Both the position numbers and the translations under genes were made by a program. A stretch of DNA of 64,000 nt from Adlercreutzia sp. ZJ141. Lineage in GTDB: Bacteria; Actinomycetota; Coriobacteriia; Coriobacteriales; Eggerthellaceae. This document shows positions 26,007 through 35,183 of the stretch, one piece after another; the first letter of the stretch is position 1, and the number at the start of each line of letters is the position of its first letter. The stretch is taken from assembly GCF_011038965.1 (NCBI RefSeq), contig NZ_JAAKEB010000007.1, forward strand, positions 1 to 64,000. Direction: 5' to 3'. The notes below the pieces were generated by a model. That model ran no database searches and had not been told where the DNA came from. It worked only from the letters and a program-made list of their open reading frames with translations.

Positions 26007-27191
26007 TCATGACTGCAACAGATAACGTCCCTCAAGCAACTTCACGTATGCGCTTCCTAAGCGTATAAATTCTTCGAGCTCGAGCGTTTCCCCCCGGCGT
26101 GTTGCTTCAATTCCCGCACCGGCTAGCAACTCAGGGATGCGAGCGGCAACCGCGGCACCCGCTTCCCCTCTGCCTGCGAAAAACGTCTTACATGAGTTCG
26201 CGATGGTCTTGCGGCGGCTAGCAAACGCCGCATCGGCCATCAAGCACGCTGCATCGACCAGCTCACGCGAGGCGGGGCTGCCATCAATTCCCGCACTTTC
26301 ACACCGATCGAGCCTGATCACTGAACTCTCCACACGCGGCGGCGGAAAAAAGTTGCCCGGCCCCACCGCAAAGCGGCCCGCCGGACGCGCGAACAGGCGA
26401 AGCTTCACCGTGTAGGCACCGTAGTTCTTCGTGCCGGGAGATGCACACATGCGGTCGGCTACTTCTTTCTGCACCATAACCGTAGCGCTCTCCAAACTAG
26501 AGAGCTGCTGGAAATAGCCCAGCACCACTGTGGCGGCAACCGCGTACGGTAGGTTCGCCACCAACTTGTTCGGCAACGCTGCAACATCCCCATCGACCGG
26601 CATTGCAGAGTGCTCATCGGTCGGCGTCTCAAGACACCCATCAGTTGTCGTCGCGGGGTGCCGTTTCCGTTCCACATCAGAAGGAAGCAGATGAAGCGCA
26701 TCCTTTTGAATAAGACGGAAGCGATCGGCCCATGGTGCGCACGTTTCGTTAAGCACGGCAGGCAGGTCGGCGTCGATTTCCACCGATGTCACAAAGCCAG
26801 CAGTTTTCAGTAACGCGATGGTCAGCGTACCAATGCCGGGTCCTACCTCGAGCACCGAGTCGCGCGGCGTCACACCAGCAAGCTGGATGATCTTGCGTAC
26901 AATAGCATCGTTTACAAGGAAGTTCTGACCGAACGAATACTTCGTCGAGAGTCCATGGGCGTCTAGTACCGCACGCGTTGCCGACACGTTGGCTAGTGGG
27001 GAAAGCGTGGCCGCGGCACCATCCAAGCCCGCTTCCCGCAAGTTAGCCACGACGCTTTCCGTTTCGTCCAGCAGCCCGAGCACTCCCTTGGCCACCCCTG
27101 CCACGAGACGGCTTGTTTGTGCGCCCGCCTTGACCTTGACCAGGCTTCTTTCGCTTGTCGTGTTCGGCAGCAGCACCGGGCTTTGCACCAT
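26007..27191 (-). CDS. rsmA: 16S rRNA dimethyladenosine transferase RsmA (KsgA)
   Basis: RsmA dimethylates two adjacent adenosines near the 3' end of 16S rRNA. The family core starts at about residue 68 of the longest frame (GLSTKYSFGQNFLVNDAIVR). SAM motif I is VLEVGPGIGTLTIALL, the acidic loop is VTSVEIDADL, and the catalytic motif is NLPYAVAAT. FFPPPRVESSVIRL lies in the C-terminal part. Two oddities are seen. The longest frame overlaps the flavodoxin-like gene by 149 bases, so the true start is probably internal (a GTG or TTG between 27045 and 26985). An insert of about 30 polar residues, including ATTTDGCLETPTDEHSAMPV, separates the acidic loop from NLPY. Confidence 0.93.
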   Translation of the reverse strand: MVQSPVLLPNTTSERSLVKVKAGAQTSRLVAGVAKGVLGLLDETESVVANLREAGLDGAAATLSPLANVSATRAVLDAHGLSTKYSFGQNFLVNDAIVRKIIQLAGVTPRDSVLEVGPGIGTLTIALLKTAGFVTSVEIDADLPAVLNETCAPWADRFRLIQKDALHLLPSDVERKRHPATTTDGCLETPTDEHSAMPVDGDVAALPNKLVANLPYAVAATVVLGYFQQLSSLESATVMVQKEVADRMCASPGTKNYGAYTVKLRLFARPAGRFAVGPGNFFPPPRVESSVIRLDRCESAGIDGSPASRELVDAACLMADAAFASRRKTIANSCKTFFAGRGEAGAAVAARIPELLAGAGIEATRRGETLELEEFIRLGSAYVKLLEGRYLLQS

Positions 27192-28059
27192 TTAGCCCCA
27201 GATCAAGACGCGGTTTTCCGCCCGTTCGCTTCTTGGAGGCATCCTTCTGAGCGTCTTTCCGCACGTCCTTTTGCGAACTCTTTTGGGCGCCCTTTTGCGC
27301 ATCGGCCTGCCCAGCATTGGATTCGCCGAGGACAACGATGTTACCCGCATGTGCTTGCGGTCGCCTTGGCGACACGTCGTACACAACAGCCTCTTCGACG
27401 ATCTCACCGGTGTCGTCAATGCGGCCCACCCAATCGAGCACCGTGTCTAAGCGGAAGCCCGCCACCGCAAGCGCCGACTTCACCACAGTAATGAGCGCAT
27501 CGAAGCCATGCGGGTCGCCACCTTCACCTACCACGTGCAGCGTCGCCGGGCGCTTAACGCCCTTGCGCGCGTTAGTCCAGAAATAAGGCTGCAAGCGATC
27601 GAGCAGCGCTTTGAGCTGCGACGGTGCACCCGCGAAGTACACCGGAGACACCACTACCAGCTCGTCGGCGGCATCGATGAGCGGGTATATCTCCTGCATG
27701 TCGTCACCGATCACGCACACCGGCGCACCGTCGATAGCACCGTCGGCGTCCACATGCGCGCAAGTGCCTGACGCGTCAGCACCTACACGAGCACAAGCAT
27801 CCGGTGCGTCGTCTTTGCCTGTATCGGCTTCATCCGCGCGTTCACCGTCATCCTCACCGTTTTCATCGCACACGTCGCACCGCACGGGCATGCAGCAGGC
27901 GCACCCCGTGCAACCCGCAATGTCGAGCGTCGACACCGGAACGAGCGCCACCTCTTCATCGGGATGCTCTTCAATACACGCTTCAAATAGTAGGTCGGCA
28001 AGCGCCGCACTGCGCCCATTCACCCGCGGCGAACCAACGATTATCAGCCGGTTTGTCAT
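27043..28059 (-). CDS. Flavodoxin-like NAD(P)H-dependent FMN reductase with basic tail
   Basis: A 338-residue protein. The N-terminal flavodoxin fold (IIVGSPRVNGRSAALADLLF, then CTGCACC and VVSPVYFAGAPSQLKALLDR) matches iron-sulfur-flavoprotein/NADPH-dependent FMN reductase enzymes. The Cys-rich loop is expanded by about 50 acidic residues with further cysteines. From about residue 245 the sequence becomes a Lys/Gln/Gly/Arg-rich low-complexity tail (QKDVRKDAQKDASKKRTGGK), ending RAAGRNGKRRG. The tail overlaps the rsmA frame. The electron partner is unknown. Confidence 0.8.
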   Translation of the reverse strand: MTNRLIIVGSPRVNGRSAALADLLFEACIEEHPDEEVALVPVSTLDIAGCTGCACCMPVRCDVCDENGEDDGERADEADTGKDDAPDACARVGADASGTCAHVDADGAIDGAPVCVIGDDMQEIYPLIDAADELVVVSPVYFAGAPSQLKALLDRLQPYFWTNARKGVKRPATLHVVGEGGDPHGFDALITVVKSALAVAGFRLDTVLDWVGRIDDTGEIVEEAVVYDVSPRRPQAHAGNIVVLGESNAGQADAQKGAQKSSQKDVRKDAQKDASKKRTGGKPRLDLGLNGAKPGAAAEHDKRKKPGQGQGGRTNKPSRGRGGQGSARAAGRNGKRRG

Positions 28060-28150
28060 CTTATCCCCTCACTTGAAGCCAGTGGCCCCGTCGTTTCTCC
28101 GCCTCAGTCCTGTGCGCCCCTGTTCGCAATGCTCACGGCGCGCAAATTAT

Positions 28151-28312
28151 CTAGGGAAACACTGATTAATTCCGCCAGCCTTGCACTGACGAACCGGTAT
28201 CTGAGAATTTCAGACCTCATTTACGCACGTCAGTGCGCGCATTCGGTCTTCAATCCTCAGGTATCCGCCTCGCCAGCGCAAGGCAAGACGGCTTTAATCA
28301 GTGTTTCCCTAG
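28151..28312. repeat. 162-bp foldback (MITE-like) element at the 3' end of tatD
   Basis: The ends are perfect 19-bp inverted repeats: CTAGGGAAACACTGATTAA at 28151-28169 and its complement at 28294-28312. The similarity between arms continues inwards with mismatches (CCTTGC, CTGACG/CTGGCG, GGTATC, TGAGAATTTCAGACC) almost to the middle, where GCAC and GTGC close the fold. The whole element can therefore form one long imperfect hairpin. The right 56 bases are translated as the end of tatD. Related single ends occur at 25970, 32325 and 59661. Confidence 0.8.
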
Positions 28313-29402
28313 CGCATACGTAATCGTGCGCGTGCGTTTCTTGCCACGGCGTGCGCGGACGATCCAAAAACGCACGCGCATTGAGTTCGAGTTGTTCAAG
28401 CAACGCCTGGCGCTCGGTGCCCAAAGCGCACCCACGAACCTCGGCAAGGCGTGCCGCCGTGAACAAAACGTGCACCGGCTCGCATTCCACACCGCGCAAT
28501 GGAACGGGGGTCATGTACGGCGAATCGGTTTCGGTGAGCAGCCTATCTGCGGGAACGCGCGCCGCAGCGTCGCGGATGGCCTCACCGCTGTTAAACGTCA
28601 GCGCCCCGCCGAACGCCACGTAGCACCCCGCATCAACCCAGGGAGCAAGCGTTTCCCAATCGGACGTGAAACAATGCAACAGCACACCAGCCTTTGGCCA
28701 GCCTTGCTCCTCCAAAATGGAGAACGCGTCGTCATGAGCCTCCCGCACATGTAGCGCCACGGGCAGCCCCGTTTCGTGTGCGAGCTGAATTTGGCGCGCA
28801 AACACGCTTTTCTGTGCAGCGCGCGGCGACAGGTCGTAATGGTAATCGAGCCCGATCTCGCCGATAGCAGCAACGCGTGCGCAAGTTAGATGGCGACGCA
28901 ACGCACCTTCAATATCGGGCGTCCAATCCTTCGCATTGTGAGGATGCACTCCTACGCACAACCGCACGTCCGGCAAGGACGGCACGGGCGATACAGCGCC
29001 GCACGCTGCAGCTTCGCCCCCTTCCCCACCGCACGCCAACGCGGACACTTCGGCCGCTGCCGCAGCAGCTGCCGTACCCATCGGATCAGCCGCCGCAGCC
29101 GTGTTCGCCAGAAGCTGCGGCAACAGCTCTTCAGCCTCGCGCAGCCAACCATCGAGTGCAGCAAACGGCGTATTACCGTCTTCCACTTCGTCAATAATAA
29201 GTCCCAAAAGCGACATCCCATACGCTGCCGCGCGCGCAAACGCCAGCGACGGATGCTTCAGATAGTGAACGTGGGCATGCGTATCGACAACCGGAGCCTC
29301 AAGCTTCGGCGCGGCAACCACCTTGTACGTGTCGCTCTTCCGCCGAACGCGGAAGAGCGCATCGCAAAATGCCTGATTATTGTCACAGCTTTCGTCGGAC
29401 AT
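28257..29402 (-). CDS. tatD: TatD-family metal-dependent hydrolase with alanine-rich insert
   Basis: A 381-residue amidohydrolase-fold deoxyribonuclease; the family is usually about 260 residues. Metal ligands are VDTHAHVHYLKHP, IGEIGLDYHYD, PVALHVREAHDDAF, VLLHCFTSDW and LLTETDSPYMTPVP. An insert between residues about 75 and 145 is rich in Ala, Gly and Glu and looks disordered. The last 18 codons, starting RETLIKAVLP, lie inside the foldback element at 28151-28312, so the natural stop seems to have been replaced by element sequence. The upstream metG gene is 23 bases away and probably cotranscribed. Confidence 0.92.
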   Translation of the reverse strand: MSDESCDNNQAFCDALFRVRRKSDTYKVVAAPKLEAPVVDTHAHVHYLKHPSLAFARAAAYGMSLLGLIIDEVEDGNTPFAALDGWLREAEELLPQLLANTAAAADPMGTAAAAAAAEVSALACGGEGGEAAACGAVSPVPSLPDVRLCVGVHPHNAKDWTPDIEGALRRHLTCARVAAIGEIGLDYHYDLSPRAAQKSVFARQIQLAHETGLPVALHVREAHDDAFSILEEQGWPKAGVLLHCFTSDWETLAPWVDAGCYVAFGGALTFNSGEAIRDAAARVPADRLLTETDSPYMTPVPLRGVECEPVHVLFTAARLAEVRGCALGTERQALLEQLELNARAFLDRPRTPWQETHAHDYVCARETLIKAVLPCAGEADT

Positions 29403-32194: not shown

Positions 32195-32240
32195 CGCATA
32201 GCCTTCCTTCGAAACCAAAACTGCCTCGATTATGCCGAGC

Positions 32241-32294
32241 AAAATAGACAGAATAAACAAAATAGACAGAATAAACAAAATAGACAGAATAAAC
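32241..32294. repeat. Three perfect 18-bp tandem repeats upstream of the AAA ATPase
   Basis: The unit AAAATAGACAGAATAAAC occurs three times without change at 32241-32258, 32259-32276 and 32277-32294. It lies 47-100 bases upstream of the ATPase start in its leader or promoter. The repeat keeps reading frame (18 = 6 codons), so an N-terminally extended protein would carry a hydrophobic FILSIL repeat. It could be a protein-binding array or a slippage-prone tract. Confidence 0.9.
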
Positions 32295-32315
32295 AGCGGG
32301 TGCGCCAAGCGGATT

Positions 32316-33857
32316 CTACCGCCCAGGGAAACACTGATTAAGTCGATAGACTTGTACGCACACGTCCTCAATCGCGCTTACCACCGCTTCGATATCGCAT
32401 TCGCGAAGGGTGCTGTAGTCTACGACGAGCGTTTGGTCGGCAGAAAGCCACGCAAGGTCATCTGCAGAATCGGCAGCGATGCGACACGAGGTGTCATCTG
32501 TAGCGCACGCAACTTTGGCATACGCTGCACCTTGGCAGAAACTCGCAAGCGACCGCACTCGCACGCCCCGCTCGTGCAGCGCCGCCACCACTTCATCGAC
32601 AGACTGTACACCGGCAGCGCCCCTGCACATGCGCAGCAAAAAACTCAACCCCGCATCTTCGTTGAGCACTTGCACGCGACTCGCCAGTGGCCCTGCTGCC
32701 AACCGTGCGAGCAGTACATCACGCAACATACGGCACCTCGTACGCAACCGGCTCACGTGCCGCTCGTAAGCACCGCTTTCTAAAAAGCGCGCCATGGCAA
32801 CCTGCTCGATGCTGCCCACCGTACTCGAATAAAACGACAGTTCACCAGCAAGTCGTTCTGCCAGCCGCTCGGGAAGCACCAGGTAGGCTAGGCGAAACGA
32901 CGGCCCCATACTCTTCGTGAACGTGTTCGCGTAGATAACCTTACCGCAAGCGTCCATACTCTGTAACGTAGGAAGCGGGCGTCCCGCCAAGCGAAATTGA
33001 CAATCGTAGTCATCTTCCACGATGTAGCGATCAGCACACTTCGCCGCCCATGCAAGCAATTCGTAGCGACGGGGGGCCGCCGTCACGCCACCCGTGGGAA
33101 ACTGATGCGACGGCATAAGATGCGCGACGCGTGCCCCACTTCGCTCGAGCACGGTCATCGAAACACCAGATGGCTCGAGGGGAATCGGCACTGCACGAAC
33201 CCCGAGCGAGTGGTACACGTGCGTTAAGCGCGGATACCCCGGGTCTTCGACCGCATAGGCACCTCCACTACCGATAAGCTGCACGATCAAGCTGTACAGC
33301 GTTTGTGCGCCCGCACCTACAACCACCTGATCAGGCGATGCATGCATACCCCGCTCGCTGCGTACATGATGGGCAATAGCTTCGCGCAAGCGCGGATGTC
33401 CGAACACACCCGGCTGCGAAAGCAGCGTTTTCTCTGATTCCTGGCTAAGCGTCGCGCGCAACTCGCGCGACCACTGCGCAAGCGGAAACCAGCTGCGCCC
33501 CGCGGACGACCCCGTAAGGTCGATAACAGCACCGCACCCAGCCGACGTTCGCAGCCCTTCGAGTGCCAACATGCTTTGAGTGCCTGCTGCCACCGACGTC
33601 GCCGACACACGAGGCGGAAGCTCGCACGCGAAATAACCCCGTCGTTCTTCTGCTCGAACATACCCTTCCGCAACCAGCTGGGCATACGCCCCTTCAACCG
33701 TAACAACACTCACACCCAAATGCTTGGCGAATGCCCGCTTGCTCGGCAGCTTCTCATTCGGTGCGATAACGCCTCCCTCAATGTCGGAGCGCAAGCACGC
33801 ATACAAATGCGCATATAGGCTTTTCTCGTCCCGGTTCTCCATGTTGTACGTAAGCAC
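32316..33857 (-). CDS. pdxR: MocR/PdxR-type regulator (GntR DNA-binding domain fused to aminotransferase fold)
   Basis: A 513-residue regulator. The N-terminal winged helix has SLYAHLYACLRSDIEGGVIA and LPSKRAFAKHLGVSVVTVEG. The C-terminal type I aminotransferase domain has VVGAGAQTLYSLIVQLIGSG, IVEDDYDCQF and the PLP lysine in YANTFTKSMGPSFRLAYLV. Such proteins sense PLP and control vitamin B6 genes. It is divergent from pdxY, whose product makes PLP, so control of pdxY is likely. The GTG at 33857 is preferred because AAGGAGA lies 6-12 bases upstream; an ATG at 33842 has none. The last codons (LNQCFPGR) are encoded by a copy of the GGGAAACACTGATTAA repeat. Confidence 0.88.
   Translation of the reverse strand: MLTYNMENRDEKSLYAHLYACLRSDIEGGVIAPNEKLPSKRAFAKHLGVSVVTVEGAYAQLVAEGYVRAEERRGYFACELPPRVSATSVAAGTQSMLALEGLRTSAGCGAVIDLTGSSAGRSWFPLAQWSRELRATLSQESEKTLLSQPGVFGHPRLREAIAHHVRSERGMHASPDQVVVGAGAQTLYSLIVQLIGSGGAYAVEDPGYPRLTHVYHSLGVRAVPIPLEPSGVSMTVLERSGARVAHLMPSHQFPTGGVTAAPRRYELLAWAAKCADRYIVEDDYDCQFRLAGRPLPTLQSMDACGKVIYANTFTKSMGPSFRLAYLVLPERLAERLAGELSFYSSTVGSIEQVAMARFLESGAYERHVSRLRTRCRMLRDVLLARLAAGPLASRVQVLNEDAGLSFLLRMCRGAAGVQSVDEVVAALHERGVRVRSLASFCQGAAYAKVACATDDTSCRIAADSADDLAWLSADQTLVVDYSTLRECDIEAVVSAIEDVCVQVYRLNQCFPGR
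32325..32341. repeat. Single end of the GGGAAACACTG foldback family in the mocR 3' end
   Basis: AGGGAAACACTGATTAA is identical to the inner 17 bases of both ends of the element at 28151-28312. It is translated in reverse as part of the last codons of the MocR-type regulator. A second short inverted pair (AAGTC / GACTT) follows immediately. No matching opposite end was found close by. Confidence 0.75.
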
Positions 33858-33899
33858 AGTTTGTCTCCTTATTTTCAGCAGCAACCGCAGCGAAGCAGC

Positions 33900-33975
33900 G
33901 AAGATGGAGGGGTGAAGCATTACGTGCTCAAGCAGGTGCTCGCTTGAGCACGTAATGCTTCGCACCTCCGTCTTC
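33900..33975. repeat. Foldback A in the pdxR-pdxY intergenic region
   Basis: Two 34-bp arms (33900-33933 and 33942-33975) are inverted repeats with an 8-base loop. The inner 20 bp, GAAGCATTACGTGCTCAAGC, match perfectly, and the outer part has three mismatches. It lies 43 bases upstream of the pdxR start. Confidence 0.85.
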
Positions 33976-34002
33976 ACTCCTGCCCCTCTGCACGGTCACA
34001 AC

Positions 34003-34136
34003 GAAGAAGTGGGGAGAAGGGCTCGGGGCGTTGCGCGCGCAGATTGCGCAGCGACTGAAACGGTCCAGTGGACCGTTTCACCAAGCGAGCACTTGCTTGA
34101 GCACGTAACACTCCGAGCCCTTCTCCCCACTTCTTC
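34003..34136. repeat. Foldback B in the pdxR-pdxY intergenic region
   Basis: The outer arms are a perfect 24-bp inverted repeat (34003-34026 and 34113-34136; left arm begins GAAGAAGTGGGGAGAAGG). The tip is an 11-bp perfect repeat TGAAACGGTCC / GGACCGTTTCA at 34056-34066 and 34070-34080. The right arm also carries GCTTGAGCACGTAA, shared with foldback A. The whole 134 bases can fold into one long hairpin. Confidence 0.85.
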
Positions 34137-34262: not shown

Positions 34263-35183
34263 ATGACCGAAGTACAATCCGTCGCCACTGCGGCAACTAA
34301 CGCAACTATTGAATCCTCTCGTCTGTACGAACGCGACGGTGCCTACATCCCCCGTATCGCCGCCGTGCACGACCTGTGCGGCTACGGCAAGTGCTCGCTC
34401 GGCGTGGCAATTCCCGTGCTGTCTGCGGCAGGATGCGACGTTTGCCCTGTTCCAACGGGTCTGTTCTCGTCGCACACCGCTTTTCCCGGTTGGTACATGC
34501 ACGACACCACCGCCATTCTCGATGACTACGTGAGCGCATGGACGGGCATTGGCGTCGACATCGACGCAATTTATTCCGGCTTTTTGGGTGCGCCTGAGCA
34601 AGTGAATCTCATCCGCCGTCTGTACGACCTGTTCCCGAACGCGCTGCGCGTGGTTGACCCGGTTATGGCCGATCACGGCAAGGTGTATCCCACATATACC
34701 CCCGAGCTATGCGACGCCATGGCACAACTCGCACATGGCGCCGACGTTCTTACACCGAACCTCACCGAAGCCGCCATTATCTTGGGCGAGCCCATCGGCG
34801 AGAACTGGTGCGGTACAGACATCTCAGATGAGGAAGCTGCCCGCATGATCCACGCACTACAGGAACGCGGCGCGAAGAATGTGGTATTAAAAGGCATTCA
34901 GCGCAACGGAGAAAGCATCATCCGCAACTTCGTGGGCACGGAAAACGGCTGCATTGAGGAAGTAAGCAACGAGTACGTACCCTACATGCTCCACGGAACG
35001 GGCGATGTATACTGCTCGTGCTTGCTCGCAGCCATTATGGCTGGCAAGACACTAGCGGAAGCTGTTGCATTCGCGGGTGATTTCACGCACGACTCTATGC
35101 TGGTCAGCGCCAAGCAGCCCGATTTCAAAAACCGCGGCGTTAGCTTCGAACCTCTGCTGGGGAAGGTAACCGCACTGCTGTAA
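34263..35183 (+). CDS. pdxY: Pyridoxal/pyridoxine kinase
   Basis: A 306-residue kinase of the ribokinase-like superfamily that phosphorylates pyridoxal and related vitamers to PLP. HDLCGYGKCSLGVAIPVLSA binds the vitamer, YSGFLGAPEQVNLI and VVDPVMADHGKVY are pyridoxal-kinase signatures, and LHGTGDVYCSCLLAAIMAG carries the catalytic GTGD anion hole. The first 26 residues are an extra, variable N-terminus. AAAGGAGG lies 5 bases before the ATG. The divergent MocR-type regulator probably controls it. A TATACT hexamer at 34220-34225 could be its -10 box, with foldbacks A and B upstream. Confidence 0.94.
   Translation: MTEVQSVATAATNATIESSRLYERDGAYIPRIAAVHDLCGYGKCSLGVAIPVLSAAGCDVCPVPTGLFSSHTAFPGWYMHDTTAILDDYVSAWTGIGVDIDAIYSGFLGAPEQVNLIRRLYDLFPNALRVVDPVMADHGKVYPTYTPELCDAMAQLAHGADVLTPNLTEAAIILGEPIGENWCGTDISDEEAARMIHALQERGAKNVVLKGIQRNGESIIRNFVGTENGCIEEVSNEYVPYMLHGTGDVYCSCLLAAIMAGKTLAEAVAFAGDFTHDSMLVSAKQPDFKNRGVSFEPLLGKVTALL

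Follow-up and report, generated by a model that had tools for sequence, protein, structure and literature searches.

The window analysed is a stretch of 64,000 nucleotides from the genome of Adlercreutzia sp. ZJ141, and near its middle the minus-strand gene tatD ends inside a small palindromic element (Table 1). The inverted ends of the segment 28151-28312 (162 bases) are perfect over 19 bp, and the segment can fold back nearly end to end; the coordinates, ends and fold given for it in an earlier note were all reproduced on recomputation. The outer 4 bp of each 19-bp end (CTAG) are the target duplication. The element proper is therefore 154 bp long, and the net gain from the insertion is 158 bp, or 3n+2. 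The fold is strong in both forms of the nucleic acid, with -50.1 kcal/mol (z -9.9) for the DNA and -114 kcal/mol (z -13.7) for the RNA in the sense of tatD.

Table 1. Features of the tatD locus (window coordinates)
Feature	Position	Strand	Basis or remark
NADPH-dependent FMN reductase-like gene, next gene on the same strand as tatD	27043..28059	-	
Empty-site TAA that would end tatD (365 aa)	28147..28149	-	element and one CTAG removed in silico
Target duplication CTAG, left copy	28151..28154	.	same 4 bp at both ends; CTAG or TTAA at other copies
IS5-type foldback element (non-autonomous MITE), 154 bp	28155..28308	.	full-length, diverged and short genomic copies
Left terminal inverted repeat GGAAACACTGATTAA	28155..28169	+	matches the ends of the IS5 element at locus L114
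Conserved centre, GCGCACGTCAGTGCGC-like hairpin with conserved internal loop	28209..28251	+	BLAST, alignment, covariation
tatD, 381 aa as present	28257..29402	-	TatD_DNase Pfam match 143-345
16 element-derived codons ETLIKAVLPCAGEADT	28260..28307	-	stop TGA at 28257-28259; peptide absent from aligned relatives
Right terminal inverted repeat	28294..28308	-	inverted match to the left end
Target duplication CTAG, right copy	28309..28312	.	same basis as the left copy

A hairpin of this kind can resemble a structured RNA. An end-to-end match to the model of the Rfam sRNA family Clostridiales-1 (RF01699) was obtained with E 0.016 in a 186-base search. It scores 20.2 bits, short of the gathering score of 48, the alignment is poor, and the family is absent among the matches listed in a 20-locus search. 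We judge the weak score to be a chance hairpin match and regard this identity as having almost no likelihood. In the Rfam scan of the window, no family reaches its gathering score.

The new end of TatD

The minus-strand frame of tatD enters the element from the right and halts at a TGA inside it. The right 56 bases supply two bases of an alanine codon, AGG (Arg), 16 new codons and the TGA. Removal of the element together with one CTAG in silico gives a TatD of 365 residues that ends in ...WQETHAHDYVCAR-TAA (...HDYVCAR-TAA); this earlier sequence is deduced from the target duplication, as the species is the sole member of its genus in the genome set. The insertion point lies 5 nt before the TAA of the empty site. 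The arginine is kept (AGA became AGG) and the 16 residues are added behind it. The claim that an insertion had replaced the natural stop codon is thus supported by the deduced empty site. The right 56 bases do code for the end of the frame, as had also been noted, but the number of new residues is 16 and not 18.

The added peptide is absent from TatD in 29 of 29 aligned relatives, so the proposal withstood the comparison that the earlier note had named as its refutation. In these 29 proteins, the tail past the conserved WQ is short or variable. The extension lies outside the TatD_DNase domain, whose Pfam match ends at residue 345, and it is predicted to be disordered, with a pLDDT of about 32-53 across the last 21 residues of the structure model. 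The idea that a small palindromic element had altered a conserved protein holds in that the change is real; it is peripheral, being confined to the variable tail, which is the least conserved part of the protein. The extended TatD is presumably made and functional, and the change is probably close to neutral. One might instead suppose that the tail has been domesticated and that the 16 residues confer a new property on TatD. In favour of this, the frame is open and the rest of the protein is intact. Nevertheless, the tails vary among relatives, the extension is of predicted disorder and it is by chance that the position of the CTAG gives this frame, which makes such domestication very improbable.

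Copies, target sites and the matching insertion sequence

The genome of ZJ141 is available as a 2.29-Mb draft in 57 contigs. It holds five full-length copies of the element at 97-100% identity, about seven at 72-80% and one truncated copy, as well as a short class of about 60-75 bp that has the same ends and consists of hardly more than both arms. The ends were found 55 times genome-wide (at most three mismatches), compared with 0 times for a reversed control pattern. The proposal had also been open to refutation by a lack of further copies, and it survived this search too. Intact copies are bordered by CTAG/CTAG or TTAA/TTAA. Among 66 copies with clear ends, drawn from this and related genomes, identical 4-mers are still present on both sides in 29, with CTAG and TTAA predominating.

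Other traces of repeats were seen in the same window. A solo end CCAGGGAAACACTGATTAA (exact 16-mer, GGGAAACACTGATTAA) stands without its partner arm at 32323..32341, where it codes for ...LNQCFP.. near the C-terminus of a gene for a GntR/aminotransferase (MocR/PdxR-like) regulator (32316-33977, minus strand); this is possibly a second C-terminus in the window shaped by the element. The solo end is adjoined by a short tandem repeat (CAAAATAGACAGAATAAACA) in 9-base steps at 32240-32295. Two more large foldbacks, with arms of 40 and 39 nt that are 87-88% complementary, lie at 33894-34136, in the space separating the regulator gene from a divergent gene at 34263-35183 that is pyridoxal-kinase-like, and they have segments in common, such as TTACGTGCTCAAGC.

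A complete IS5 element of 1.29 kb with matching ends (GGGAAACGCTGATCAA and GGGAAACGCTGATTAA) and CTAG on both flanks was found in a related genome (G136, locus L114). It encodes a 331-residue transposase of the IS5 family, which scores 285 bits against NF033581 (cut-off 140 bits) and also matches PF01609 and PF05598. A MITE-like end directly adjoins this insertion sequence. Other transposase loci of the group show GGTAAACGCTGATTTA, GGGAAACGCTGATTAA or GGGAACCGCTGATAAA following CTA, and GGGAACCGCTGATAAA is similar to the left end of elements in Curtanaerobium respiraculi (G085), another member of the Eggerthellaceae. A 200-bp stretch with CTAG and the same ends around a different interior occurs in a metagenome-assembled genome of Clostridiales Family XIII (L113), where the ends may have been transferred or the contig may be misbinned.

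The tatD element therefore has the features by which a MITE is recognised: it is short, it has terminal inverted repeats without a transposase gene, its copies are dispersed, the intact ones show a target-site duplication, and its ends are common to an autonomous insertion sequence, namely the one in G136 rather than one in its own genome. Assignment to the YTAR group of IS5 follows from the 4-bp YTAR duplication and from the IS5-family DDE transposase of the matching autonomous element. The DDE_Tnp_1 transposases of ZJ141 itself (a 616-residue type and fragments) were considered as mobilisers and rejected, as they lack the ends of the element. A search with PF13586 gave no match. Because protein and profile searches of the draft assembly found no IS5 transposase of the matching type, we can only infer that the element moves in trans.

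The most probable history (a probability of roughly 0.9) is that a 154-bp foldback MITE, moved in trans by an IS5-type transposase, was inserted immediately ahead of the tatD stop codon and added 16 residues to the protein. A DDE transposase of this type would recognise ends of the type GGAAACRCTGATYAA, cut palindromic CTAG or TTAA (YTAR) tetranucleotides and duplicate 4 bp. One copy would have entered the CTAG formed by the codons GCT-AGA, 5 nt ahead of the TAA. Three frames lead into the element from either end: one meets a TAG at once, within CTAG, one runs through four codons, L-G-K-H, to a TGA, and one is open. TatD would have fallen into the open frame, so as to end at the TGA of the element with 16 residues gained in a dispensable tail.

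The conserved centre and the placement of copies

BLAST matches in two further genomes (G024 and G122) are limited to element bases 59-101. These matches form the middle of foldbacks of about 162 bp that lie at CTAG or TTAA and have quite different outer ends; IS5 elements with ends of the G122 or G024 type were looked for and none were found. Across 23 aligned elements, both partners have changed in 22 of 30 pairs without loss of pairing. The covariation score is 0.553, whereas shuffles give 0.243 and slid versions no more than 0.156. Covariation does not by itself prove function, since intramolecular palindrome correction could also yield paired changes. When the inner 108 bases are used as a model, matches are obtained in 21 of 138 Eggerthellaceae genomes (E ≤1e-3) and in three genomes of another family of the same order (E ≤1e-5); the copies per genome obtained with it are lower bounds, and matches near 20-35 bits are uncertain. 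A scan of viral contigs for the core gave no match.

Related cores (CTCGCTCRCGTAC..GTACGC..CGCTCGG) also occur in foldbacks that have no obvious transposon ends (L156, L161-L179, L200-L213). These often stand in tandem (G133) or, in G017 and others, follow a GTTCCGCCG hairpin that resembles a terminator. In the other family of the order (f6), foldbacks of about 105 bp share the core (L300, L301 and L302); two of them stand directly after TAG, and one ends in a terminator-like T run.

The conserved centre with its exchanged ends is the part left unexplained if the element is a MITE of a known kind. We tentatively consider, as an idea with less than even chances, that there is a foldback family throughout the Coriobacteriia which keeps a co-varying GCGCACGTCAGTGCGC centre while exchanging its ends (GGGAAACACTGATTAA, GGGAACCGCTGATATA, GGTCATGATGAATAAAT or GGGAGACGCGTCTTTAT). 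Its centre might then be a functional module, either an RNA or a DNA/protein-binding hairpin, that borrows the ends of insertion sequences, and not a degenerate remnant of one.

The co-varying pairs, the conserved internal loop and the very strong RNA fold would also suit a host regulatory element selected behind genes, such as a terminator, a stabiliser of mRNA 3' ends or an RNase III site, so that its position at tatD would be functional. There is precedent in Correia elements, which are processed by RNase III, and in the known effects of ERIC sequences at 3' ends (PMC10969869). The placement of copies agrees with this in part, as convergent gaps are favoured over divergent ones (16 versus 5) and copies often adjoin stop codons. 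Of the 66 elements, 19 lie exactly on a stop codon within CTAG or TTAA, with 22 gene ends concerned, and the stop is simply regenerated because it lies inside the duplicated tetranucleotide. For a few genes the reading frame continues 15-19 nt into the element, and for tatD 56 nt. The gene calls in this analysis are heuristic, with reading frames scored by codon usage. Of 23 background CTAG sites flanking copies in G136 and G085, 5 are stop codons, which is about the same share. Strong targeting of stop codons was therefore rejected, and the pattern is explained by target preference combined with selection against insertions that disrupt genes. Copies show no bias in orientation towards the genes beside them: in tandem gaps 12 point the same way and 8 the opposite way, and the counts for stop codons are 8 and 7. 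Left out of this count were 22 of the 66 candidates, whose core was too diverged to orient. The lack of bias argues against an orientation-specific cis-RNA role. The element contains no match to a promoter or to an intrinsic terminator, that is, a G+C-rich hairpin followed by a T run, and its mobility is evident from the target duplications and the near-identical copies. A regulatory origin thus appears rather unlikely.

Relation to known elements and significance

Insertion by an IS5-type transposase agrees with what is known from other systems. IS5 of Escherichia coli follows the YTAR target rule (PMC10359306) and shares the 4-bp duplication and the transposase family with the elements described here, although it is autonomous and has different ends. 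MITEPsy1 of Pseudomonas syringae, whose transposition has been demonstrated, makes a 4-bp duplication of CTAG or YTAA and is alike in mechanism (PMC3189936). It is about 100 bp long, with 18-bp ends that start with GGAA and resemble those of the IS5-family element ISPsy2. The tatD element differs from it in the sequence of the ends and the body, in its 154-bp length and in a centre conserved across genera. As regards the consequence for the protein, a direct precedent is QMITE2 of Coxiella burnetii, a MITE found at the 3' ends of genes and presumed to provide EnhC of the Dugway strain with its final 33 residues (PMC5896051). It is known from a different phylum and has a different partner, and no sequence in common with the tatD element was noted. 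Rickettsia palindromic elements are likewise palindromes of about 150 bp that become coding sequence (PMC10969869). They insert in frame inside genes, whereas the tatD element, with its 158 bp (3n+2) at a gene end, shifts the frame and only replaces the stop.

IS5-type MITEs are a known kind of element, and the tatD element represents a new family among them, one whose centre is unusually conserved. The papers searched contain no account of this family in Eggerthellaceae, and a search for papers on repeats or hairpins in Coriobacteriia gave no result. The tatD element shows cleanly how the end of a protein can be rewritten by a small mobile hairpin. Because the 4-bp target and the frame that is read determine the outcome, sequence alone suffices to predict the three possible tails. 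The same centre inside unrelated ends is not expected from the usual view of MITEs as decayed insertion sequences, and it allows one to ask whether the interiors of such elements have a function.
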